In this document: in pieces, positions 22,233-37,011 of the stretch
Layout: each line of letters opens with the position of its first letter
Position numbering within the stretch: the stretch's first letter is position 1
Source of the DNA: Streptomyces sp. V3I8
GTDB lineage: Bacteria > Actinomycetota > Actinomycetes > Streptomycetales > Streptomycetaceae
Assembly (NCBI RefSeq): GCF_030817535.1
Contig: NZ_JAUSZL010000002.1
Span: forward strand, 8,122,001-8,186,000
DNA length: 64,000 nucleotides
Direction of reading: 5' to 3'
Notes under the pieces: generated by a model
Databases searched by the model: none
Told to the model about the DNA's origin: nothing
Seen by the model: the letters and a program-made list of their open reading frames with translations, nothing else
Position numbers and translations under genes: made by a program

Positions 22233-23852
22233 TCAGCGGGCCGCCTCCGCCGCCACCGACCGCGCCCACCGGTAGTCCGCCTTGCCGCTCGGGGACCGCT
22301 GGATCGACTCGGTGACCACCAGCCGGCGGGGGATCTTGTAGCCCGCCAGCCGCGGACGGCAGTGGGCCCGGATCTCGTCCAGCGAGAGCAGGCCCCCGCC
22401 TTCGCGCAGCTGCACCACGGCCGCCACCTGGTTGCCCCACGTCTCGTCGGGCACTCCGGCCACCAGGGCGTCGTACACGTCCGGGTGCGACTTGAGCGCC
22501 TGCTCGACCTCCTCCGGGTACACCTTCTCCCCGCCGGTGTTGATGCACTGCGAGCCGCGGCCCAGGACGGTGACGACGCCCTCCTCGTCGACGGTCGCCA
22601 TGTCACCGAGCAGCACCCACCGCTCGCCGTCCTTCTCGAAGAAGGTCTCGGCGGTCTTCGCCGGGTCGTTGTAGTAGCCGAGCGGCACGTGTCCGCACTG
22701 GGCGATCCGGCCGGGCTCGCCCACGGCGACCGGCTCGCAGGTCGCCGGATCGACCACCCGGGTCCGGGAGTTGACCTGGATGCGGAAGCCGCGTCCGGGG
22801 CCCGAGTCGGCGGTCGCCGTGCCGTTGAAGCCGGACTCGGAGGAGCCGAAGTTGTTGAGCAGCAGCACGTTCGGCACGAGGGCCTGGAACTGCGCGCGTA
22901 CCGTCTCCGACATGATCGCGCCGGACGAGGAGACGCTGAACAGGGAGGAGCAGTCGGTGTCCTTCAGCGGCCCGTTCAGGGCGTCGATCAGCGGCCGCAG
23001 CATCGCGTCGCCGACCAGCGACACACTGGTGACGCTCTCCTTCTCGATGGTCCGCAGCACTTCCTCCGGCACGAACTTGCTGTGGACGACGACGCGTTGC
23101 CCGAAGTGGAAGCCGATGAAGGCGGTGAGGGTGGAGGTGCCGTGCATGAGCGGGGGTGTGGGGAAGAAGGTGATCCCGTCGCCGCCGGCCGCGACCCGCT
23201 CGGCCAGCTCCTGCGGCGTCCTCACCGGCTCACCGGTCGGGGCGCCGCCGCCCAGCCCCGCGAAGAAGAGGTCCTCGTGCCGCCACATCACCCCCTTCGG
23301 CATCCCGGTCGTGCCGCCGGTGTAGATGATGAACTGGTCGTCGGCCGAACGCGCGGGGAAACCGCGCTCCGGGGAGCCGGCGGCCTCGGCGTCCGTGAAG
23401 GCGGTCACCGGCAGGGAGGGCGCGTCCGGTGCGGGGACACCCACCCGTACGAGGTGCCGCAGCGCCGGGACCCGTGGCAGGGCCGCCGCGACCCGCTCGG
23501 TGAACTCCGCGTCGAAGACCAGCGCCACCAGGTCCGCGTCCCGGTAGAGGTAGACCAACTCCTCCTCGACGTAGCGGTAGTTGACGTTGACCGGCACGAT
23601 CCGCGCCTTCAGGCACCCGAGGACCGTCTGCAGGTACTCGATGCCGTTGTAGAGGTGCAGTCCGAGGTGCTCGCCGGGACGGACGCCGCTGTCGGTCAGG
23701 TGATGGGCGACCCGGTTGGCCGCCGCGTCCAGCTCCGCGTACGTCAGACGGCGCTCGGCCCCCGAACCGGGGTGGTCGATGTGGACGAGCGCCTCGCGGT
23801 CCGGGACCACGTCGACGACCGACTCGAACAGGTCGGCAAGGTTGTACTCCAC
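22233..23852 (-). CDS. Acyl-CoA synthetase, FadD19/FadD17-like
   Basis: 539 residues, GTG 23852 with a GGAGGAGCG site. Complete ANL enzyme: IIYTGGTTGMPKGVMWRHED (P-loop), NNFGSSESGFNG (A5), GDMATVDEEGVVTVLGRGSQ (A7-A8), NTGGEKVYPEEVE and SPSGKADYRWA with the catalytic Lys. The MEYNLADLFESVVDVVPDREAL start and GGTTG loop are typical of the actinobacterial ligases that activate sterol side chains and branched fatty acids. It is divergent from a crotonase gene; the promoter gap carries two operator-like palindromes. It probably feeds the downstream crotonase, OB-fold and Ltp-like genes. Confidence 0.88.
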   Translation of the reverse strand: MEYNLADLFESVVDVVPDREALVHIDHPGSGAERRLTYAELDAAANRVAHHLTDSGVRPGEHLGLHLYNGIEYLQTVLGCLKARIVPVNVNYRYVEEELVYLYRDADLVALVFDAEFTERVAAALPRVPALRHLVRVGVPAPDAPSLPVTAFTDAEAAGSPERGFPARSADDQFIIYTGGTTGMPKGVMWRHEDLFFAGLGGGAPTGEPVRTPQELAERVAAGGDGITFFPTPPLMHGTSTLTAFIGFHFGQRVVVHSKFVPEEVLRTIEKESVTSVSLVGDAMLRPLIDALNGPLKDTDCSSLFSVSSSGAIMSETVRAQFQALVPNVLLLNNFGSSESGFNGTATADSGPGRGFRIQVNSRTRVVDPATCEPVAVGEPGRIAQCGHVPLGYYNDPAKTAETFFEKDGERWVLLGDMATVDEEGVVTVLGRGSQCINTGGEKVYPEEVEQALKSHPDVYDALVAGVPDETWGNQVAAVVQLREGGGLLSLDEIRAHCRPRLAGYKIPRRLVVTESIQRSPSGKADYRWARSVAAEAAR

Positions 23853-23958
23853 CGCTCCTCCTGACCCCGGCGACCCTCGGCGAGTGCACGTGCGTCACCG
23901 CTTCGCCGGTCATCAGAGCAAAGGCCGCCACAACTGTGAAGAGTCCGCGCGGATAAAA

Positions 23959-23975
23959 TCTGACTGACTGTCAGA
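23959..23975. promoter_or_regulatory. TCTGAC-TGACT-GTCAGA operator candidate
   Basis: Perfect six-base arms lie between the divergent FadD19-like and crotonase genes, in the AT-rich part of the gap. The core CTGAC-N6-TCAGAAAA is shared with the site at 13628 upstream of another FadD operon. A TetR-type acyl-CoA-sensing repressor is the likely ligand. Confidence 0.5.
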
Positions 23976-24002
23976 AAACCCTTGTACTGGTTACCCGCCT
24001 CC

Positions 24003-24016
24003 TGCAACCTGTTCTC
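24003..24016. promoter_or_regulatory. KstR-like near-match upstream of crotonase gene
   Basis: TGCAACCTGTTCTC matches the KstR consensus TNNAACNNGTTNNA at all fixed positions except the last A. It lies 24 bp before the crotonase start. It is weaker than the perfect match at 882. Confidence 0.3.
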
Positions 24017-24039
24017 GTTCCTGAGACGGGAGGACGGCA

Positions 24040-24840
24040 ATGGGTGGGACGGAACACCTCACCGTGCGGCGCGAAGGCGCCACACTGGTGCTCACGCTCA
24101 ACAGGCCCGAGGCCAAGAACGCGCTCTCGCTGCCGATGCTGGTCGGCCTCTACGACGGCTGGATCGAGGCCGACGAGGACGACGCCGTCCGCTCCGTCGT
24201 ACTGACCGGCGCGGGTGGCGCGTTCTGCGCCGGCATGGACCTCAAGGCCCTCGCGGGCGGGAAGATGGAAGGACAGCGGCACCGGGACCGCCTCGAGGCC
24301 GACCCCGATCTGCACTGGAAGGCGATGCTCCGCCACCACCGGCCGCGCAAACCCGTGATCGCCGCGGTGGAAGGCCACTGTGTGGCCGGCGGCACCGAGA
24401 TCCTGCAGGGGACCGACATCCGGGTCGCGGGGGAGTCCGCCACCTTCGGACTCTTCGAGGTGCGGCGCGGACTGTTCCCGATCGGGGGCTCGACGGTGCG
24501 GCTCCCGCGGCAGATCGCGCGCACGCACGCGCTGGAGATGCTGCTCACCGGGCGGCCCTACTCGGCGCGGGAGGCCGCCGGTATCGGGCTGATCGGGCAT
24601 GTCGTGCCCGACGGGACCGCTCTGGAGAAGGCCCTGGCCATCGCCGAGCAGGTCAACGGCTGCGGGCCGCTCGCCGTCGAGGCGGTCAAGGCCTCCGTGT
24701 ACGAGACCGCCGGGATGAGCGAGCCGGACGCTCTCGCCGCCGAGCTGAAGCGGGGGTGGCCGATCTTCGACACGGCCGACGCGGAGGAAGGGGCCCGGGC
24801 TTTCGCCGAGCGACGCCCGGCCGTGTTCCGGCGGGAGTGA
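24040..24840 (+). CDS. Enoyl-CoA hydratase/isomerase family (crotonase) protein
   Basis: 266 residues, ATG 24040 after GGGAGGA. Crotonase fold: LNRPEAKNALSLPML, oxyanion-hole segment GAGGAFCAGMDLKAL, and the second AVEGHCVAGGTEILQGTDIRV segment. At the usual catalytic positions one finds FEVRRGLFPIGGS: one Glu-like position is present, but the second Glu of true hydratases is replaced around Gly-Gly-Ser, as in EchA19-type sterol side-chain hydratases. It likely hydrates an enoyl-CoA made by the FadE/FadD set. It is probably co-transcribed with the OB-fold and thiolase genes that follow. Confidence 0.85.
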   Translation: MGGTEHLTVRREGATLVLTLNRPEAKNALSLPMLVGLYDGWIEADEDDAVRSVVLTGAGGAFCAGMDLKALAGGKMEGQRHRDRLEADPDLHWKAMLRHHRPRKPVIAAVEGHCVAGGTEILQGTDIRVAGESATFGLFEVRRGLFPIGGSTVRLPRQIARTHALEMLLTGRPYSAREAAGIGLIGHVVPDGTALEKALAIAEQVNGCGPLAVEAVKASVYETAGMSEPDALAAELKRGWPIFDTADAEEGARAFAERRPAVFRRE

Positions 24841-24909
24841 CGTCCGGCGCCGCCGGGGTGACGTCTCGCTCCGCGACCGGATCGTTCGCTGCCGCGGGTC
24901 CGTCGTGGC

Positions 24910-24944
24910 CGGCCGCGCAGTTCCCCGCGCCCCTGCCGGGGCGC
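24910..24944 (-). repeat. Second copy (inverted) of the dispersed intergenic element
   Basis: The reverse complement contains GGGGCGCGGGGAACTGCGCG, identical over 20 bases to the element at 11593. Here it lies between the crotonase and OB-fold genes, preceded in its own orientation by a CCCC-GGCA-GGGG hairpin. Confidence 0.7.
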
Positions 24945-24990
24945 CGTCCCTGACCGGGGCTTCAGGCCCACTGTGTGTGAGGAGATCCCC

Positions 24991-25947
24991 GTGCCCGAAG
25001 TCCTCAAGGCGCCCCTCGTCGTCGAATTCCCCTTCACCCGGTCCCTCGGGCCTGTGCAGAGCGCGTTTCTCACCGGGCTGCGGGAGCGGGTCGTGCTGGG
25101 GGTGCGGACCGGGGACGGCCGGATCCTCGTCCCGCCCGTCGAGTACGACCCCGTCACCTCCGAGGAGGTGGGCGAACTCGTCGAGGTCGCGGCCACCGGG
25201 ACCGTCACCACCTGGGCCTGGAACCATGAACCCCGGCGGGGGCAGCCGCTCGACCGGGCGTTCGCCTGGGTGCTGGTGCGGCTGGACGGGGCGGACACCG
25301 CACTGCTGCACGCCCTCGACGCGCCGGGCGGGCCCGACTCCGTGCGCACCGGTATGCGGGTGCGCGTCCGCTGGGCCCGGGAGCGCTCCGGCGCCATCAC
25401 GGACATCGCCTGCTTCGAACCGCACGAAGCGCACGAACCCGGTGGGGCGGACGAACCGGCCGCCCACGACGGGCGGTTCGAGAACCCCGTGACCGGCATC
25501 GTCGCGCCCGCCCGGCTCGACTACACCTACTCACCCGGTCGGGCCCAGTCCGCCTACCTCCACGCACTCACCGAACGGCGGGTCGTCGGGGAGCGCTGCC
25601 CGTCGTGCCGCAAGGTGTACGTCCCGCCGAGAGGGGCCTGCCCCACCTGCGGCGTGGCCACCTCGGAACGGGTCGACGTGGGGCCGCGCGGGACCGTCAC
25701 GACCTACTGCATCGTCAACATCAAAGCGAAGAACCTCGACATCGAGGTGCCCTACGTCTACGCGCACATCGCCCTCGACGGCGCCGACCTCGCCCTGCAC
25801 GGCCGGATCGGCGGCATCCCGTACGACAGGGTCCGCATGGGCCTGCGGGTCGAGCCGGTGTGGCCGGACGGAGGCGGCCACCCCGACCACTACCGGCCCA
25901 CCGGCGAACCCGACGCGGACTACGAGACGTACAAGGAGCTGTTGTAG
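24991..25947 (+). CDS. Tandem OB-fold (DUF35 / ChsH2-like) protein
   Basis: 318 residues. GTG 24991 is preferred because GAGGAG lies just upstream; GTG 24973 is also in frame. It has two DUF35 units. The first (~1-160) has the OB-fold strands (VGELVEVAATGTVTTWAW) but no zinc cysteines. The second (~175-318) has a proper zinc ribbon with Cys 203, 206, 217 and 220 (CPSCRKVYVPPRGACPTC) and the OB fold (VGPRGTVTTYCIVN). DUF35 proteins are partners of thiolase-fold aldolases such as the Ltp2-ChsH2 pair that cleaves sterol side chains. The two thiolase-like genes that follow with no gap are the expected partners. Confidence 0.85.
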   Translation: MPEVLKAPLVVEFPFTRSLGPVQSAFLTGLRERVVLGVRTGDGRILVPPVEYDPVTSEEVGELVEVAATGTVTTWAWNHEPRRGQPLDRAFAWVLVRLDGADTALLHALDAPGGPDSVRTGMRVRVRWARERSGAITDIACFEPHEAHEPGGADEPAAHDGRFENPVTGIVAPARLDYTYSPGRAQSAYLHALTERRVVGERCPSCRKVYVPPRGACPTCGVATSERVDVGPRGTVTTYCIVNIKAKNLDIEVPYVYAHIALDGADLALHGRIGGIPYDRVRMGLRVEPVWPDGGGHPDHYRPTGEPDADYETYKELL

Positions 25948-27008
25948 ATGCCCGCACCGAGGCCGCTCAGGGACATCGCCGTCGTCGCGTTCGCGCAGAC
26001 CGACCACCGGCGTACCAGCGACGAGCTCTCCGAGGTGGAGATGCTCATGCCGGTCCTCCACGAGGTCCTGGCGCAGACCGGACTGAAAACCGGCGAGGTC
26101 GGCTTCACCTGCTCCGGTTCCACGGACTACCTCGCGGGCCGGGCGTTCTCCTTCACGATGGCGCTCGACGGGGTGGGGGCCTGGCCGCCGATCTCCGAGT
26201 CGCACGTGGAGATGGACGGCGCGTGGGCGCTGTACGAGGCCTGGACGAAGCTCCTCACCGGCGACGCGGACACCGCGCTCGTGTACGCGTACGGCAAGTC
26301 GTCCCCCGGCTCCGTGCGCGACGTGCTGACCCGGCAGCTCGACCCGTACTACCTCGCGCCCCTGTGGCCCGACTCCGTGGCCCTGGCCGCCCTCCAGGCG
26401 CAGGCGCTCATCGACGCGGGGCACACGGACGAGCCGGCGCTGGCCGCCGTCGCGTCCCGCAGCCGCGCCTCGGCCGCCGGCAACCCCCATGCCCAGCTGC
26501 GCGGTCCGGTGCCGCGGGGCGGCTACGCCGTACGCCCCCTGCGCACCGGCGACTGCCCGCCCGTCGGGGACGGAGCCGCCGCCGTGATCCTCGCCGCGGG
26601 GGAGCGGGCCCGGGAACTGTGCGAGCGGCCCGCCTGGATACGGGGCATCGACCACCGCATCGAGGCGCACGGCCTGGGTGTACGGGACCTCACCGACTCG
26701 CCGTCCACGCGGCTGGCGGCGGAGCGGGCCGGGGTCTTCGAACGGCCGGTGGACACCGCCGAACTGCACGCCCCCTTCAGCTCCCAGGAGGTGGTGCTGC
26801 GCAAAGCCCTGCGGCTGGACGACGGCGTCACCGTCAACCCGTCCGGGGGAGCGCTGGCCGCCAACCCCGTCATGGCCGCCGGTCTCGTCCGCATCGGCGA
26901 GGCGGCCGACCGGATCCGCCGCGGGGAATCGGACCGGGCGCTGGCACACGCCACCTCGGGCCCCTGCCTGCAGCAGAACCTGGTCGCCGTACTGGAAGGA
27001 GACCCGCG

Positions 27009-27012
<4 letters not shown>
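25948..27012 (+). CDS. Thiolase-fold lipid-transfer-like protein (Ltp family), no nucleophilic Cys
   Basis: 354 residues, ATG 25948 immediately after the OB-fold stop. SCP2-type thiolase fold: IAVVAFAQTDHRR start, SGSTDYLAGRAFSF, VGDGAAAVILAAGE, VTVNPSGGALAANPVMAAGL and ATSGPCLQQN at the C-terminus. Where thiolases have the nucleophilic Cys of the N-terminal half, this has SESHVEMDGAW, so a classical Claisen thiolysis is unlikely. A structural or aldolase-like role with the OB-fold partner is more plausible. It overlaps the next gene by ATGA. Confidence 0.83.
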
Positions 27013-29887: not shown

Positions 29888-31093
29888 TCATGACCCCAGG
29901 AAGTGGAAACCGGGCCGCGGGTGCATGAGGAAGTCGTGGTGCGAGATGTTCCACGCGTAGGCACCCGCGAGCCCGAACGCCACCCGGTCGCCCGCCCGCA
30001 GCCCCGGCGCCGGCACGCGTCGCGCCAGGACGTCCTTCGGTGTGCACAACTGGCCCGTCAGCGTGACGAGTTCGCCGTGCGCCGCCGGCCGGGGCCACGG
30101 ATGCGGCCACTCCTCCACCGCGAACAGGGTGCAGGGCTGGTCGTGCCCCTTGGTCGCCGGGGTGCGCAGGTGGTGCGTACCGCCGCGCACCACGGCGAAC
30201 TCCTCCCCGTGGCTGTGCTTCACGTCCAGCACCTCGGTCACGTACCAGCCGCAGTACGCCGTCAGCGCGCGCCCGGGTTCGATCCGCAGGAGCAGCTCCG
30301 GGTACCGGTCGCCGAGCCGGGCGAGCCCCGCCCCGTACGCGGCCCAGTCGAACCGGTCCCCGGGCGCCGTGTAGTCGACGCCCATGCCCCCGCCGACGTT
30401 CACCTCGGCGAGCCGCACCCCGTGCCGCCCGGCCAGCCGGACGGCCCAGTCCACGACGGAACCGGCCACCGCGAGCTGCTGCGGCGCGCGGAGCCCGCTC
30501 GCCAGGTGGGCGTGCACGCCGCGCAGTTCGAGGTGCGGGTAGGTGCCGTCGGTGAGCAGCCGCACCACCGTGTCCGCCCGGGACGGGTCGAGGCCGAAGG
30601 GCGTGGGGCGCCCGCCCATCGCGAGAGAGCTGTCCGCCAGCGAGCCCGCCGCCACCGGCAGGTTGAAACGCGGCAGGACCGCCACCCGGGCGTCCGGCAC
30701 CACCTGCCGGGCCAGCTCGGCCAGCATGTGCAGCTCGTGCTCGCTCTCCACGTGGAAGCGCGCCACGCCCAGCTCCAGCGCGGCCACGATCTCGGCAGGG
30801 GTCTTCCCGGGGCCGCCGAAGGCCAGCGGGCGGCCCGGCACCGCCTTGGCCACGTGGTCGAGTTCGCCGCCCGAGGCGACCTCGTAGCCGTCCACGTACG
30901 GGCCGAGCGCGTCCAGGATCCCCGGCTCCGGATTGGCCTTCGCCGCGTAGTGGAGCTCGACGCGCCCGGGCAGTGCGGCCCGCACGGCCGCCGCATGGGC
31001 CCGCAGCGCCGCCAGGTCGTACACGTAGGCGGGCAGTTCGGCGCGGGGCAGCGAGAGGGTGAGGTCTCGTACGGCGTCGGTGGGTACGGTCAT
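29888..31093 (-). CDS. PLP-dependent decarboxylase of NIS siderophore pathway (PvsE/SbnH-like)
   Basis: 401 residues, ATG 31093 overlapping the synthetase upstream by ATGA. It is a fold-type III (alanine-racemase-like barrel) amino-acid decarboxylase. PLP-binding Lys52 sits in VELHYAAKANPEP; also seen are VASGGELDHV, HAHLASGL, NVGGGMGVDY (phosphate loop), IEPGRAL, and the C-terminal LCTPKDVLA with the catalytic Cys of the second subunit face. The ending GAYAWNISHHDFLMHPRP is that of siderophore decarboxylases such as PvsE and SbnH. It probably makes the amine (ethanolamine from serine, in vibrioferrin) or decarboxylates a citryl-amino acid intermediate. Confidence 0.85.
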   Translation of the reverse strand: MTVPTDAVRDLTLSLPRAELPAYVYDLAALRAHAAAVRAALPGRVELHYAAKANPEPGILDALGPYVDGYEVASGGELDHVAKAVPGRPLAFGGPGKTPAEIVAALELGVARFHVESEHELHMLAELARQVVPDARVAVLPRFNLPVAAGSLADSSLAMGGRPTPFGLDPSRADTVVRLLTDGTYPHLELRGVHAHLASGLRAPQQLAVAGSVVDWAVRLAGRHGVRLAEVNVGGGMGVDYTAPGDRFDWAAYGAGLARLGDRYPELLLRIEPGRALTAYCGWYVTEVLDVKHSHGEEFAVVRGGTHHLRTPATKGHDQPCTLFAVEEWPHPWPRPAAHGELVTLTGQLCTPKDVLARRVPAPGLRAGDRVAFGLAGAYAWNISHHDFLMHPRPGFHFLGS

Positions 31094-32853
31094 CGGGTGC
31101 TCCCGGTCGGACGGTGCGGGACGCCCTCGCCGAGAGGCGAGGGCAGACGGACGTAACCGGCCTCACGGTCGGCCTTGCGCGCCCAGCGGGTGAGGAGGTT
31201 CGCCTTCGCGGGCAGCGGCACTCCCGCCAGCAGCGCGGCCAGCGGCGGCGGGCAGCCGTACCGGTCGGCGTACGCGCGCAGGGCGGCGCGGACCTCCGCC
31301 CACAAGGCGGCCTCGGTGTGCGGATGCAGATCCGCGAGTGCGGCGAGCAGCTCGGCGACGTGGTTCACGAGCAGGCAGTAGACGACCCGGTCCCAGCCGC
31401 GCTGCGCGTCGTAGGTGAGCGGGCCCGCGACCTCGGGCGGCAGCGAGGCGAGGGTGTCGGCGTGGTGCTCGGGCACGAGCTTGGTGCCCTCCAGGTCCCG
31501 GAAGAGGACCTGGGCGGGCATGCCGTCGCCGTCGACGCAGATCAGCACGTTCTGCAGATGGGGTTCGAGCACCAGCCCGTGGTCGAAGTAGGCGGCGAGC
31601 ACCGGCGGCACCAGCAGCCTGAGGTAGGCCGCCCACCAGTCGAGCGCGGCCCGCGGGCCGGCCCCGTCGAGGAGGCGGGAGACGTGCGCGGGACCGGTGG
31701 GGTACTCGTCCGCCACGGCCGCCGCGAGCAGCGGGGTGGTGCCCGGCAGGAGACGCCGGCCCAAACCCTCGCGGACGATGACCCCGAACCCTTCGAGCAT
31801 CTCGCGGTCGGGTGCCCCGTCGGGGCCGGGCAGCGCGAGACTGCGGTACGCGGGCTCGCGCAGCACCGCGCTGCCGGGGAACCGGTCGGACAGGCCGGCG
31901 AGCACCGGACCGAGCACACGGGTGAGGGCCACGGCGCCGGACAGCTCGTACCACGCGTTCTTGCGCCAGCAGTTGGTGATGCGGATGTTCAGGCTGAACT
32001 TCAGGAACGACTCGCCGTCGTACAGGGTCCGCACGGACGCGGTGGCCGCGAAGGGCGTGCCGCCGGGGCCCAGGTCGAGGACGTCCCCGCGTCCGAGGGC
32101 CGCGCGCAGCACCGGGTGCTCGCGCAGCATCGCGTACTGCCAGGGGTGCGCGGGCAGCAGCCGGTAGCCCTCGGGGACGCTCGCAACGCCCCGCCGGCCC
32201 AGCCGGTCGAGCGCGTCCGTGGCACCGGGCTCCGCGGACTCCTGCGCGATCAGGTGCTCGCGTACGGCGAGGTGCCGCAGGGGGAAGACCGCGGCCGTCT
32301 CCGGCGCGTAGGCCGGCCAGGCGCCCGCGTCCCCGGTGCGCGCCTTGGGCGTCGGGTGGAAACGGTGCCCGAAGAGCAGCGACCGCTCGGAGGCGAGGTA
32401 GGCGGCGACGGGTGTGTCCGCCGGCACGGTCCGGTCCGCCGTCCGTACGGCGAGGGACGAGGCGATCGCGCGGTGGCTGGAGCCGATCTGCTCCAGGAAC
32501 TCCTCGTTGCGCACACCGGTCCGCAGGAACAGCTCGTCCTGCGTGTACCGGGCCAACCGCCGCCAGCCGATCTCGCACCAGTCACCGTCCGCCGTCCGCT
32601 CACTCACCGGGCCGGTGAAGCGGTGGGCGCCGAGCATCGACGTACGACGCAGCGCGACCCGGAGCAGCACACCGCGCCGGGGCAGCCGCAGCAGCAGGTG
32701 GCGGCCGGTGAGGGCGGTCTGGTGCTCGGGCGCCGACACCTCGCGCAGCAGGCAGTTGAGGAGCGTGTGCGCCACGGCGAGGTCCGGGGAGGGGAGTTCG
32801 GTGTCCGCCGATGAGAGGGGGGTGCTACCGGGCGACTCGGTCAGCGGGGGCAT
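31090..32853 (-). CDS. NIS siderophore synthetase, IucA/IucC family (PvsD-like)
   Basis: 587 residues from ATG 32853, which has a GGAG site; GTG 32901 would add 16 residues. IucA/IucC enzymes activate a citrate or 2-ketoglutarate carboxyl as an acyl-adenylate and join it to an amine or alcohol. Seen: RLLPAHPWQY (HPWQ), FLKFSLNIRITNCWRKN (nucleotide/citrate site), LVLEPHLQNVLICV (H-x-Q-N catalytic patch) and FRDLEGTKL. It is the third gene of the four-gene operon; the 158-bp gap to the previous synthetase is unusually long for the operon. Confidence 0.9.
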   Translation of the reverse strand: MPPLTESPGSTPLSSADTELPSPDLAVAHTLLNCLLREVSAPEHQTALTGRHLLLRLPRRGVLLRVALRRTSMLGAHRFTGPVSERTADGDWCEIGWRRLARYTQDELFLRTGVRNEEFLEQIGSSHRAIASSLAVRTADRTVPADTPVAAYLASERSLLFGHRFHPTPKARTGDAGAWPAYAPETAAVFPLRHLAVREHLIAQESAEPGATDALDRLGRRGVASVPEGYRLLPAHPWQYAMLREHPVLRAALGRGDVLDLGPGGTPFAATASVRTLYDGESFLKFSLNIRITNCWRKNAWYELSGAVALTRVLGPVLAGLSDRFPGSAVLREPAYRSLALPGPDGAPDREMLEGFGVIVREGLGRRLLPGTTPLLAAAVADEYPTGPAHVSRLLDGAGPRAALDWWAAYLRLLVPPVLAAYFDHGLVLEPHLQNVLICVDGDGMPAQVLFRDLEGTKLVPEHHADTLASLPPEVAGPLTYDAQRGWDRVVYCLLVNHVAELLAALADLHPHTEAALWAEVRAALRAYADRYGCPPPLAALLAGVPLPAKANLLTRWARKADREAGYVRLPSPLGEGVPHRPTGSTR

Positions 32854-33011
32854 GTGCGGCTCCGGCAGGTGCGGGAAGAAGCGAAGGACGGTCGCGCTCA
32901 CGGCGGTCCGCGCGGCGGCGGGCGGGCGGGATCCGCACGGCGGCGGGCAGGGCGGCCGCCGTGCGGATCAGGACCGGGGAGGGGGCCGGCCGCGCTGCCG
33001 GGCCTCGACCC

Positions 33012-34829
33012 TCACGCGGGAGTTCCCGTACGCAGGAGGTAGTTGGGGCCGGTGATGTAGTGCTTGTTGATGTCCGCCGCGCCGGAGCGCTCCTTGCTGA
33101 GCAGCGTCCCCGCCGTGACCATCGCCTTGACCGGCAGCCGCGGTGCCTCCAGCACCCGGGCCCGCAGCACGGCGCCGGGCTCGCCGGCCGCCGTGCCGAG
33201 CCGCTCGACCGCCTCGCTGAGCCGGTCGCGCACGAGCTCCAGCAGCACCGGCAGCGGCGCACGGCCGTGCCGGGCCAGCCCGAAGGCGTAGGCGCCCGCG
33301 CACAGGTGGACCGTGATGGTGGTGAACAGGTCGGCGACCGGCCGGTCGTCCGCGACGAAGGTGCGGGCGTCGTCGAAGTCCGCGGGGCCCGGCGCCTCGT
33401 CCCCCAGCCGTTCGCCCAGCCGCACGCGGTTGATGCGCGGCCCGTCGTTGTCCTTCAACAGCAGCCGCAGCCGCGTACGGCCGTCGTCCCTCCGGTCGAG
33501 GACCAGCGAGATGTTCTGCTGGTGCGACTCCAGCGCGATCCCGTACCCGAAGAGCGTGGTCTGCCAGTCGAAGAGCAGGGTCAGGAGGGCGTCCAGCAGG
33601 GCGAGCAGGTCACCCCCGTGAAAGCGGTCGGCCAGGTCCTCGACGACCAGCCGTCCGCCGGGTGCCTCGGCCAGCAGCGCGGCCATGGGCACGACGACGC
33701 AGTCCTCGAGGCCGTCGGGCAGACGCCGGAACAGCGCGGCGAGCAGTTCGTGCCCGGCATGCGCGTACAGGCTCTCGTCGGCGTGCAGGATCGTGCTCCC
33801 GAAGCGCGGTTCGCGGGCGATGACCCGCTCGATCAGACGCTGCCCGGCGGCCCCGTCGACCAGGGTGCCGGGTTTGACGGTGCGCCGGTTGCGCAGCCCC
33901 AGCGAGGCGGTGTTCAGGGGGAGTTTGACGTGCAGCGACGGATCCTCGGACAGAGCCACGGTACGCATGGAGAGGGTGGGTACGACTTCGAGGCGGGAGC
34001 GGCCGGCGAGCACCGCCCGGTCGGCCAGACCGGTGGCACGCAGGGCGTCCTCCAGCGGGGCGCCGACGACCAGCGGGTGCACCGGCAGCGCCACATGCGT
34101 ACGGTCGAGTCCCGGGAGCCCGAGCACCGCGGGCGTGGGCCAGCCGTCCGGGAACGCCCCGGTCACCGCGTCCCGCGGCAGGGCGAGCCAGCGCAGCGCG
34201 AAGCGCGGATGCACCTCCGGCGCGTACGCGCGCAGGTGTGCCTCGTCCAGTCCGGCGCGTCCGCGCGCGGTCGGGTAGACGGGATGGTCGAGATGGGCGG
34301 CGAGGGTGTCGTACGCCAGCCCGCCCGTCAGCCCCGACCAGGCGTCCGGAGAACGCCCGTGACGGTCCGTCAGCCGCTGGAGCACCTCGTCACGGACCGC
34401 CGTGTGCAGCCGCACGGTGGCCAGTGTCTGCCGGCACTCCTCGGCGAAGGCGTCGAAGCCTTTCCGGTCGCGGGGGTCGGCGAGCTCCCGCAGGGTGGCG
34501 AGGATCGCGTCGCACGTCTCGTGACGGACGGGCGCGAACCCGTCGGACTCCCGCACGAGCAGGGGCAGCCGGGCCGCGTACTCGCACTGGAACCCGTCCT
34601 CGGCGACGGGCAGCAGCAGGGACGCCGTGTCGCCGCAGGGCCGTTGCCACCAGGCGCCGTCCGCCCGGTGCACGAGCCGGCCGGCCGACCGCAGACCGAC
34701 CACGTCCTCACGCAACAGCGCGCCGAGCACCCGCACCACCAGCTCGCGCTGGACCGCGTCGGTCTCCACGGGCGCGCTGCCGGACGCGCTGCCGCAGGAG
34801 GTGCCGGCCGTCACCGGCCGCGCCGTCAC
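33012..34829 (-). CDS. NIS siderophore synthetase, IucA/IucC family (PvsB-like)
   Basis: 605 residues, GTG 34829 overlapping the ATP-grasp stop by 4 bp, with a GGGAG site. Second IucA/IucC-type synthetase, divergent in sequence from its neighbour: LPVHPLVVG, LHVKLPLNTASLGLRNRRTV, ILHADESLYAH, GIALESHQQNISLVLD (E-x-H-x-Q-N patch), LLLKDNDGP, and a FhuF-like C-terminal half ending ADINKHYITGPNYL. Two different NIS synthetases imply stepwise, non-symmetrical assembly around citrate, as in vibrioferrin and staphyloferrin B. Confidence 0.9.
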   Translation of the reverse strand: MTARPVTAGTSCGSASGSAPVETDAVQRELVVRVLGALLREDVVGLRSAGRLVHRADGAWWQRPCGDTASLLLPVAEDGFQCEYAARLPLLVRESDGFAPVRHETCDAILATLRELADPRDRKGFDAFAEECRQTLATVRLHTAVRDEVLQRLTDRHGRSPDAWSGLTGGLAYDTLAAHLDHPVYPTARGRAGLDEAHLRAYAPEVHPRFALRWLALPRDAVTGAFPDGWPTPAVLGLPGLDRTHVALPVHPLVVGAPLEDALRATGLADRAVLAGRSRLEVVPTLSMRTVALSEDPSLHVKLPLNTASLGLRNRRTVKPGTLVDGAAGQRLIERVIAREPRFGSTILHADESLYAHAGHELLAALFRRLPDGLEDCVVVPMAALLAEAPGGRLVVEDLADRFHGGDLLALLDALLTLLFDWQTTLFGYGIALESHQQNISLVLDRRDDGRTRLRLLLKDNDGPRINRVRLGERLGDEAPGPADFDDARTFVADDRPVADLFTTITVHLCAGAYAFGLARHGRAPLPVLLELVRDRLSEAVERLGTAAGEPGAVLRARVLEAPRLPVKAMVTAGTLLSKERSGAADINKHYITGPNYLLRTGTPA

Positions 34830-36028
34830 GGCCGGATCTCCCAGCGCTGCCCGGCCAGGAAGTCGGTCACCGCCCTGTCCACGGCCTCCTGATCGGTCCC
34901 GGTGGCCCGCACCACACCGAGGAAGTCGCGATTGGTGCCGTACACCTCGTGCCGCTCACCGATTTCCCGTAGCGGCCGATAGGTCAACCGCACCCCGTCC
35001 GAGGTCAGTTCGGTGGCCGGGGGAGCGGCGGTCAGCGTCCCCGGACGCTCGGCGCACGGATAGTCCAGGCGTGCCGCCCCGTCCCGCCGTGCTCCCAGGT
35101 CCGCGGGCAGGGGTTCGCCCAGGTGCGTACGGAGGATGTGCTCGAAGAGCGGAACGTCCAGCAGTCGCGCCAGCAGCAGATCGCACTGGTCGCCTATGGC
35201 GCGGTAGTTGACCTCGATGATCCGCGCCCTGCCCTCGTGCACCACGAACTCGGTGTGGCAGACGCCGAATCCGACCCCGAGCGCGTCGAGCTGGGCCAGC
35301 ACCTGGGCGACGACCGGTTCGGGATGGGCCGCGACGAAGGTGAGCCGTTCCTCGATGAAGTACGGCGGCGGGGACACCACGGTGCGGAAGCCGCCCAGGA
35401 CGTGACGCACCTGCCCGTCGCCGAGCGTCTCCAGCGTGCAGAGCTCCCCGGGCAGGTACTCCTCCACGACCAGCGCGGCCCCGGGGCGGCGGCCGCGGAT
35501 CTCGGCGCAGCGTGCCACCAGGTCCTCGGGGCCCTCGACGAGCACGACGTCCTCGCTGGCCACGCCCTCGCGCGGCTTGAGGACACACGGGAACGGCGGG
35601 TCGAGGGCGGCCACGTCCGTCCGGTCGGTGACCTCGGCCGACCACACCGTGTCGGCGCCGGCGGCGGCGAGCCGGCGCCGCATTTCCGCCTTGTCCTTGG
35701 TGCGCAGGGCGACCCGCCAGTCCTTGCCCGGCAGGCCGAAGTAGGAGGCGGCCAGGGCGGCCTGGGTCTGCAGGTGGTCGCTGTTGGTGAAGACCGCGTC
35801 GGGACGGCCCAGCGTCGAGATCCGGGTGACCACGGAACGGAAGTCGCGGACGTCGCACTCCAGGACCTCGAACCCGTCGGTCCCCGGGTGCCCGCTCCGA
35901 TACGCGCGCCGGTGTGCGTCCGGCTGATCCGTGAGAACCGTCACCCGGAGGCCGAGCCGTGCCGCGGCCGGCAGGAACCCTTCCGTGACGGAGTCGGTCG
36001 GGTTGAGGGCGAGCACGTACATACGCAT
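34826..36028 (-). CDS. ATP-grasp ligase of siderophore operon (PvsA-like)
   Basis: 400 residues from ATG 36028 (TTG 36040 and ATG 36022 are alternatives; none has a good site). ATP-grasp fold: N-terminal Rossmann-like MRMYVLALNPTDSV, AALRTKDKAEMRRRL, FPCVLKPREGVASEDVVLV (ATP-binding Lys), ALVVEEYLPGEL, VCHTEFVVHEGRARIIEVNYR (metal-binding Glu/Asn). Such enzymes couple a carboxylate to an amino acid through an acyl-phosphate. In vibrioferrin synthesis PvsA performs the amino-acid ligation step. First gene of the operon; its promoter lies under a perfect iron box. Confidence 0.85.
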   Translation of the reverse strand: MRMYVLALNPTDSVTEGFLPAAARLGLRVTVLTDQPDAHRRAYRSGHPGTDGFEVLECDVRDFRSVVTRISTLGRPDAVFTNSDHLQTQAALAASYFGLPGKDWRVALRTKDKAEMRRRLAAAGADTVWSAEVTDRTDVAALDPPFPCVLKPREGVASEDVVLVEGPEDLVARCAEIRGRRPGAALVVEEYLPGELCTLETLGDGQVRHVLGGFRTVVSPPPYFIEERLTFVAAHPEPVVAQVLAQLDALGVGFGVCHTEFVVHEGRARIIEVNYRAIGDQCDLLLARLLDVPLFEHILRTHLGEPLPADLGARRDGAARLDYPCAERPGTLTAAPPATELTSDGVRLTYRPLREIGERHEVYGTNRDFLGVVRATGTDQEAVDRAVTDFLAGQRWEIRP

Positions 36029-36114
36029 GCGACGGGACAACTTCTGCTCGGGTGCGGGCGGTTGCGGCGGACGCCGGGTGCGGTCACGCGCTGCCGTTGG
36101 TGATCTCTATACTA

Positions 36115-36129
36115 AGGTAAGCCTTACCT
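36115..36129. promoter_or_regulatory. Iron box (DmdR1/IdeR-type) in divergent siderophore/reductase promoter
   Basis: AGGTAAG-C-CTTACCT is a perfect palindrome. Flanked as TAAGGTAAGCCTTACCTGG it closely fits the actinobacterial DmdR1/IdeR consensus TTAGGTTAGGCTNACCTAA. It lies 87 bp upstream of the ATP-grasp gene and 28 bp upstream of the FhuF-like gene. One site can therefore repress both directions when iron is plentiful. Confidence 0.88.
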
Positions 36130-36156
36130 GGTGTTGCCCCCTGTGCAGGAGTACCG

Positions 36157-37011
36157 ATGACCGTGGCCGTGGAGACTCCGTGGACCCGTGCGGCCCCGAC
36201 CGTGTCCGGCCTGCTGCGTGACACGTATCGGCAACTGGCGGACATCTGCGAGGCGTTGACGGTCCGCGTGGAGGGACCGGCGCCGCGGTTCACCCGAAAG
36301 GGCGTGTCCGGCGCGGAGCTGACGAAGGACCAGCAGGCGATGGAGGCCTTCCTCGTCGCCGAGGACTCCCGTATCCGGTCACGTCACGACCACGTCCCGC
36401 GCCGCGACGTCGCCGCCTCCCGCGCCTTGCACGACTACGCGTGGTCGGTCGGCCTGCTGACGAGCGGCGTCTGGTACCTCACGGGCCGGGTGCCGCGGAT
36501 CCGCCCCGAGGACGTACGACTCGACCTGGCGTCCGGGGAGTTCGCGATCAGCCCGGGGTCCGGCCTCGCCTGTCTCCCGGGGGACCCGGCCGCCGCGCTC
36601 CCCGGGGTGCTGACCGTGCCCCACGAGGAGGCGCTGCGCGCGGAGCTGCGGGTCGCCGTCGCCGACCACATGGAACCGCTGCTCACCGCGATCGGCCCGC
36701 ACGTCCGGCGCGGTCCGCGCGCGCTGTGGGGCCTGGTCACCGACGACCTGGTCTCCGGGATCTGGTACCTCGGCCGCATGCTCGGCCGGGAGGACGACGC
36801 CGTACGGGCCGCCTCCGCGCTGCTGCCCTCCGCCGTCGCGCCCTTCCCCGGCGGCGCGGACTTCCGCCACCTCACCGGCGCCGACGGCCGGCAGCACCCC
36901 ACCCGCACCCGCATGGGCTGCTGCCTCTACTACACGATCCGCCCCGCCGAGGCGTGCGCCACCTGCCCGCGCACCTGCGACACCGAACGGCTGCGCCGCC
37001 TCGAATCCTGA
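36157..37011 (+). CDS. FhuF-like (2Fe-2S) siderophore-iron reductase
   Basis: 284 residues, ATG 36157 after AGGAGT. The C-terminus carries the FhuF signature C-C-x10-C-x2-C (GCCLYYTIRPAEACATCP), which binds an unusual [2Fe-2S] cluster. The rest is the helical FhuF/IucA-like scaffold (LVTDDLVSGIWYLGRML). FhuF proteins release iron from internalised ferric siderophores by reduction. It is divergent from the siderophore operon and shares its iron box, so it is the likely intracellular iron-release step of the same system. Confidence 0.88.
   Translation: MTVAVETPWTRAAPTVSGLLRDTYRQLADICEALTVRVEGPAPRFTRKGVSGAELTKDQQAMEAFLVAEDSRIRSRHDHVPRRDVAASRALHDYAWSVGLLTSGVWYLTGRVPRIRPEDVRLDLASGEFAISPGSGLACLPGDPAAALPGVLTVPHEEALRAELRVAVADHMEPLLTAIGPHVRRGPRALWGLVTDDLVSGIWYLGRMLGREDDAVRAASALLPSAVAPFPGGADFRHLTGADGRQHPTRTRMGCCLYYTIRPAEACATCPRTCDTERLRRLES

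Follow-up and report, generated by a model that had tools for sequence, protein, structure and literature searches.

Siderophore systems are usually understood as three steps, in which the chelator is made, exported and taken back. The locus described here, from Streptomyces sp. V3I8, raises the question of how a siderophore-type biosynthetic operon can be kept when no exporter or importer genes accompany it. The window analysed is a stretch of 64,000 nucleotides (C2:8122001-8186000) in a 9.32-Mb genome that contains six IucA/IucC genes. Within it, an operon of four minus-strand genes lies beside a divergent fhuF-like gene, in the order pvsA-B-(C)-D-E of the vibrioferrin genes with the pvsC position empty. 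The chances are about even that this is an iron-regulated vibrioferrin-type carboxylate-chelator operon that has lost its transporters by deletion and whose trafficking would be encoded elsewhere. The four genes, their order, the missing exporter and the divergent FhuF gene had all been described in the initial annotation, and the present analysis agrees on each. The features of the locus are as follows.

29888-31093, minus strand: pyridoxal phosphate (PLP) decarboxylase, PvsE/AcsE/SbnH-like (PF02784 and PF00278; best PDB match 6knh/6kni)
31090-32853 (open reading frame to 32901), minus strand: IucA/IucC synthetase of the PvsD/AcsD clade (AcsD 2w02 match, E 3.2e-75)
32854-33011, no strand: scar of a deleted major facilitator superfamily (MFS) exporter gene, from DNA alignment with other loci (L009, L012, L013, L007, L008, L010 and L014)
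33012-34829, minus strand: IucA/IucC synthetase of the PvsB clade (PF04183 and PF06276)
34826-36040, minus strand: ATP-grasp amide ligase, PvsA-like (PF13535/PF02655; PDB matches are L-amino acid ligases)
36113-36131, no strand: iron box TAAGGTAAGCCTTACCTGG in the divergent fhuF/ligase promoter, with 5 mismatches to the assumed actinobacterial consensus
36157-37011, plus strand: FhuF-like (FhuF_C) ferric-siderophore reductase (PF11575, 27.9 bits against a cut-off of 20.5)

No MFS gene is present between the two synthetase genes, which are separated by 110 bp, or by 158 bp from the likelier start of the second. That start is most likely the ATG at 32853 rather than 32901, because the extra 16 residues fall in the 3' end of the exporter gene of relatives. 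The alignment defining the scar includes an intact MFS gene (L009) and two remnants (L012 and L013), and the 3' end of the scar carries the GGAG ribosome site of the downstream synthetase gene. The likely start of the ATP-grasp protein, which is 35% identical to its counterpart in Vibrio fortis and 52% to that in Rhodococcus, is 36028 or 36022, because in most relatives the alignment begins at residue 5. The FhuF-like protein scores under both NCBIfam FhuF cut-offs. The PDB match of the decarboxylase, which we take to be an SbnH, has the database title of probable diaminopimelate decarboxylase. Neither a transporter nor diaminopropionate genes were found among the window neighbours run against Pfam, which are unrelated, and no cognate uptake genes adjoin the cluster. 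Elsewhere in the genome there is no close relative of the exporter, the best match having an E value of 5.5e-6 and 29% identity over ~143 residues. Past the last gene of the operon the predicted fold is no better than shuffles as a terminator (z -0.40).

The missing genes are found in many Streptomyces relatives, where an MFS protein of about 400 residues fills the gap between the synthetases at the pvsC position. In many, two FecCD permeases, an ATPase and a binding protein, forming a FecBCD-type importer, lie between fhuF and the ligase gene. The order in these complete clusters is the pvsABCDE order of Vibrio fortis (on a plasmid), Cupriavidus necator H16, Pantoea soli, Piscirickettsia and two Rhodococcus plasmids. 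Of 124 relatives of the window, the best 80 were kept as the nearest-relative set; all are from Streptomyces except for one from Streptantibioticus. Stripped and complete loci have flanking genes in common, therefore the loss happened in place. The fhuF-like gene had been regarded as an addition in this strain. This does not hold, as a FhuF match is present at many other loci, in 43 of 62 loci without an intact exporter and 30 of 53 with one, the 53 including six reference loci that all lack a match.

A PvsB-like synthetase was identified in 47 of 199 genomes drawn evenly across Streptomyces. Once a lone 41% match (G049) was dropped, 46 genomes were considered to retain a cluster; in 36 the main region was read, G000 is the window, and nine (G048, G058, G060, G061, G065, G094, G101, G186 and G190) were judged by match positions. 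The exporter is intact and adjacent in 14, broken or a remnant in 3 (G079, G140 and G082), and undetected genome-wide in 29, where none of the scored candidates matches at E<=1e-15. These 29 include one genome with its cluster at a contig end (G031) and one with a short tblastn fragment of the exporter (L127 in G105). A binding protein of the importer type (E<=1e-155) lies beside the cluster in 14 of the 46 genomes, made up of G079 and 13 of the 14 whose exporter is intact, and in none of the 29 without (Fisher p 1.9e-9, kinship ignored). Weaker binding-protein relatives, with best E values of 5e-103 to 2e-52, are encoded elsewhere in 19 of these 29, the genome of the window not being one of them. 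A second sample, drawn at the order level, gave 33 positives in 147 genomes, three of which had been seen before. The exporter is present in 15 of the further 30 (with an in-frame stop in G301) and absent from 15, and the binding protein (E<=1e-110) was found in 15. The region with the four-gene set was read in three of them (G288, G290 and G295). In G288 the exporter is present and the importer is in pieces; in G290 there is no exporter and an importer orthologue is on another contig (L162 and L163). Loss of the exporter is thus no oddity of one strain, being the commonest state in the first sample (29/46) and found in half of the second (15/30).

On a tree of 115 loci, which left out L102, L108 (G177), L111, L136 and six duplicates, 62 loci lack an intact exporter. 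These fall into 25 separate clades if loss is one-way, a count that presumes a single tree and no re-gain. A recount with splits under 0.9 collapsed also gave 25, although the merging rule need not lower the count. Two loci, L040 and L085, were scored as broken from frame breaks seen in the G079 and G140 regions, and the exporter state of two at contig ends (L011 and L018) is not assignable. Re-gain of the exporter by recombination was considered; the exporter and core trees share 26 of 29 supported splits, with 2 conflicting pairs, so re-gain is unlikely and repeated loss is preferred. Fragments of the exporter are found in L012, L013 and L026, with a permease fragment in L013; further exporter pieces were flagged in L021, L024 and L127 and recognised by visual inspection of the L019 and L097 scars. 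The remnants differ among loci and therefore fit independent deletions. Relocation of the exporter was also considered and, for an orthologue of the pvsC-position MFS protein, rejected. In all 76 genomes (46 and 30) every strong match to the pvsC-position MFS protein adjoins the synthetase, except in G211, where the exporter and synthetase genes each sit at a contig end, on separate contigs. In G223 there is also a second, weak exporter match (E 3e-20), on a contig with a different NRPS-independent siderophore (NIS) cluster, where two AcsD-like stretches, an aldolase and FecBCD-like genes are present (L166; G223:C22:164000-182000).

The exporter is present with the importer gone or in pieces in L009, L017, G125 and G288. 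The reverse, an importer in place without an exporter, was not seen among the loci, save in G079 (L040), whose exporter is frame-broken. The G079 break is possibly a sequence error, as the decarboxylase gene of this importer-bearing cluster has a frame break too. This distribution suggests that the importer was lost before the exporter. The ancestral operon would have carried both a pvsC-position exporter and a FecBCD importer, since deleted, the importer probably first.

Eleven loci form a clade (support 1.0, tree depth 0.42) in which neither transporter is present and there is no FhuF match. Five loci of this clade that were checked (L103, L107, L117, L120 and L122) have a fused carboxyltransferase gene (PF01039 and PF03255) upstream of the ligase gene, with an iron box between the two in four; none was found in L120.

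The iron boxes were scored against a consensus that we take to be the actinobacterial one. In 20 base shuffles of the promoter region of the window the mean was 9.15 mismatches and the lowest 7, compared to 5 for the box. Among 36 stripped loci, a box of <=5 mismatches lies between fhuF and the ligase gene in all 32 where both are adjacent; survey-wide, base shuffles average 8.7 mismatches and the lowest of 20 reached 5 in one region. The same is seen in 6 of 6 loci without an intervening importer of the cluster type, four of which have the exporter and two of which are unscored. In all 24 complete loci the box is before the first permease gene and not before the ligase gene, where there are 9-10 mismatches, the level of shuffles. 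Deletion of the importer has therefore placed the iron-box promoter directly on the biosynthetic genes. Among 19 further or divergent loci (<=4 mismatches), the box is just upstream of the ligase gene in 14 and absent from L109, which is cut by a contig end, and from L120, L121, L126 and L132. It precedes the ligase gene in 9 of the 11 loci of the deep transporter-less clade. In Embleya (L098), which has no transporter match, the box lies between the ligase gene and one for a siderophore-interacting protein (SIP)-type ferrisiderophore reductase (L098:5776-7557), which takes the place of the Streptomyces fhuF and is adjoined by a gene similar to those for phosphoenolpyruvate mutase and isocitrate lyase.

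The biosynthetic genes are under purifying selection, perhaps slightly relaxed. By a coarse test, which asks for one open frame of >=85% of the length per gene, all four genes pass in 59 of the 62 exporter-less loci, as they do in all 53 loci that have the exporter. The exceptions are L026 (G082), with a broken decarboxylase gene, L085 (G140), with no ligase match, and L109. Outside the tree, in the exporter-less G177, the ligase match is short and the second synthetase gene shows a change of frame. Other stops in the matches of relatives lie at the extreme ends or ahead of the true start. The ratio of nonsynonymous to synonymous substitution (dN/dS, by Nei-Gojobori) was averaged over eight stripped pairs, two of ten being omitted as nested, and over ten complete pairs, two of which share a locus. 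For the ligase, PvsB-like, PvsD-like and decarboxylase genes the means are 0.26, 0.31, 0.27 and 0.27 in stripped pairs, compared to 0.22, 0.25, 0.21 and 0.20 in complete pairs (p 0.23, 0.05, 0.05 and 0.07, respectively). The exporter-less pairs range from 0.15 to 0.47, and in some, such as L043/L055, the loss may postdate the split.

The two synthetases are of different types. A tree of 20 synthetases places the first with PvsB of V. harveyi and V. fortis (support 1.0), and the second with PvsD and AcsD (support 0.934), next to L004, another synthetase of the same genome. DesD, encoded by a separate gene of this genome (L001), is in another clade than both, and DesD and the second Phaeobacter synthetase fall in other branches. 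A tree of this kind had been proposed with DesD as the rival placement, and it puts the window synthetases with PvsB and PvsD/AcsD. At twelve AcsD columns, presumed to be active-site residues, the second synthetase is identical to AcsD throughout. The first agrees in 10, having glycine for N302 and aspartate for E466, as does PvsB of Vibrio, Pantoea and Cupriavidus. At position 444 it has a histidine, as in Rhodococcus, where the five proteobacterial PvsB compared have asparagine. Elsewhere in the genome (C2:1.94 Mb), L004 and L005 form a second, divergent IucA/IucC pair, one member of which has alanine at AcsD Ser279 and possibly an altered activity.

By analogy with these families, the product is probably a citrate-based iron-binding compound. 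Iron shortage would turn the operon on through the iron box. The AcsD/PvsD-like synthetase would couple citrate to L-serine and the PLP enzyme would decarboxylate the conjugate, giving its ethanolamine form. The ATP-grasp enzyme would supply the next unit, an amino acid, the PvsB-like synthetase would finish the molecule with the last acid, and FhuF would release iron from the complex in the cytosol. Export and the return of iron would now rely on transporters encoded elsewhere.

Candidates for such transporters are present in the genome. It has eleven iron boxes at <=1 mismatch, where a reversed control gave 0; the weaker box of the window is not among them. Neighbours of these strong boxes include the DesD gene, a pair of genes of the ABC exporter type in what is presumably a nonribosomal peptide synthetase (NRPS) siderophore cluster, two FecCD uptake loci, a heme-oxygenase locus with FecCD and MFS_3 (exporter-type) genes, and a SIP reductase gene. 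The 12-13 kb read at the two FecCD uptake loci held no recognised synthetase. The search for a replacement transporter adjacent to the cluster covered the 45 largest neighbour families, part of which were run against Pfam; those of stripped loci are common to complete loci or limited to one clade. In S. scabiei (L057) another MFS gene lies about 3 kb beyond fhuF. The separate importer contig of G290 means that uptake genes acting in trans exist at least once.

Several observations weigh against trafficking from elsewhere, or against an intact vibrioferrin-type pathway. Among the candidates compared, no replacement transporter tracks the loss. The MFS_3 protein could serve as exporter, but orthologues (>60% identity) occur in 25 of the 29 genomes that lack the cluster exporter and in 11 of the 14 that have it, the protein being in two pieces in one of these 11. 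The genome of the window has no binding protein closer than 33%, one of its uptake binding proteins occurs in just 4 of 46 genomes, and the weaker binding-protein relatives are also found in 9 of the 14 genomes with a cluster importer. To these can be added the damage in some exporter-less clusters (L026/G082, L085/G140 and G177), the slightly higher dN/dS of stripped pairs, and the histidine at 444, because of which the last substrate of the PvsB-like enzyme may differ from that of vibrioferrin.

It is therefore necessary to consider what else a stripped cluster might do. The product might be retained in the cell as a cytosolic iron ligand, for storage, buffering or shuttling, from which FhuF or the SIP-type reductase would remove the iron. 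This is unlikely, yet export and import vanish together in unrelated lineages where synthesis, the iron box and often an adjoining cytosolic reductase remain, as in Embleya, and the 11-locus clade without either transporter mostly retains its iron box. Retention would, however, be unnecessary if generic exporters could do the export; the same 11-locus clade is without FhuF, and the seemingly earlier loss of the importer does not in itself lead one to expect retention. It is likewise improbable that, about 25 times in Streptomyces, a secreted carboxylate siderophore became an intracellular iron ligand through deletion of importer and exporter, with iron-regulated synthesis and often a cytosolic reductase retained; this would be a bacterial counterpart of the fungal intracellular siderophores.

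The slightly raised dN/dS would also fit clusters in decay, in which a secreted chelator becomes useless to its maker once the importer has gone, the exporter is lost next, and the biosynthetic genes would be disappearing in turn. All of the broken clusters are indeed exporter-less, with none among the 53 exporter-bearing loci by the coarse test. However, the four genes of the window are intact, as are those of nearly all exporter-less loci, dN/dS in exporter-less pairs is 0.15-0.47, deep exporter-less clades persist, and most loci retain iron boxes, so decay is doubtful as the general explanation. It is more doubtful still, and quite improbable, that the pathway now yields a different product, not siderophore-like and needing no dedicated transporter. 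The histidine/asparagine difference would suit this, though it is common to the exporter-bearing Rhodococcus, as would the carboxyltransferase genes of the deep clade; against it, iron-box control and FhuF have been kept and complete and stripped clusters are closely related in the tree. An iron-regulated operon served by transporters from elsewhere therefore remains the preferred reading, and the biosynthetic genes appear to be useful without transporters of their own.

Two of the three steps of a siderophore system have thus been lost jointly many times in one genus, with synthesis mostly intact and iron-controlled. The absence of an exporter from a cluster need not signal that the cluster is dead. 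Matched pairs of species with complete and stripped clusters allow direct tests of whether dedicated transport is needed, whether other transporters are used, and whether a siderophore has an internal role.

Some neighbouring genes are also of note. A gene for an HpcH/citrate-lyase-type aldolase, which may supply a building block, adjoins complete clusters in Streptomyces, Rhodococcus, Cupriavidus and Pantoea (L025, L039, L053, L064, L070 and L077; L094, L096, L099 and L100). In one Streptomyces group a 584-residue protein of the ABC exporter type is encoded beyond fhuF (L032:2037-3791 and related loci), at 16 complete and 5 stripped loci. In the window itself, AMP-ligase, enoyl-CoA hydratase, ChsH2-like and thiolase-like genes at 22233-27012 are probably an unrelated acyl-CoA degradation set.

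A vibrioferrin-like set in Streptomyces was known before; the exporter and importer in relatives, and their repeated joint loss, are new. The suggestion that the locus is a pvs-like set stands as regards the A-B-D-E order and the clades of the two synthetases, but not its supposed rarity in the genus, given its frequency in the survey and the examples in print. The four-gene avsA-D cluster of S. avermitilis (SAV7320-7323) has been termed a vibrioferrin-like polyhydroxycarboxylate siderophore cluster, with no product named in the passages cited (PMC9394381). Going by the gene list and expression values in that paper, it may be a similar set, with three "siderophore synthetase components" and a diaminopimelate-type decarboxylase and no exporter among the genes listed there (PMC9394381). 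A region of S. melanosporofaciens is given a 56% antiSMASH match to xanthoferrin (PMC13047742). The vibrioferrin enzyme functions are described as still untested in a passage of a review whose step order differs from the one proposed here (PMC5577590). In the Vibrionaceae, the present spread of vibrioferrin is explained by a system that was inserted long ago, inherited vertically and lost extensively (PMC5812596). Repeated loss of transporters from such clusters was not found described in the titles and abstract openings of the open-access papers that the searches listed.

The window can be placed among the known systems. With desferrioxamine desABCD it shares the NIS synthetase superfamily and an iron box, the clade of DesD being different. 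Like achromobactin (AcsD) and staphyloferrin B (SbnH), it has an AcsD-like citrate synthetase and an SbnH-like decarboxylase. The pathways for staphyloferrin B and achromobactin have three NIS synthetases, with Dap genes for staphyloferrin B, whereas the window has just two, plus an ATP-grasp ligase. From vibrioferrin (pvsABCDE) and xanthoferrin it differs in having no pvsC exporter and no uptake genes, in its divergent fhuF, and in one active-site position of the PvsB-like enzyme. It is these two systems that it nonetheless matches in the order and families of A, B, D and E and in the NIS clades, with a ligase and synthetases 31-35% identical to those of V. fortis.

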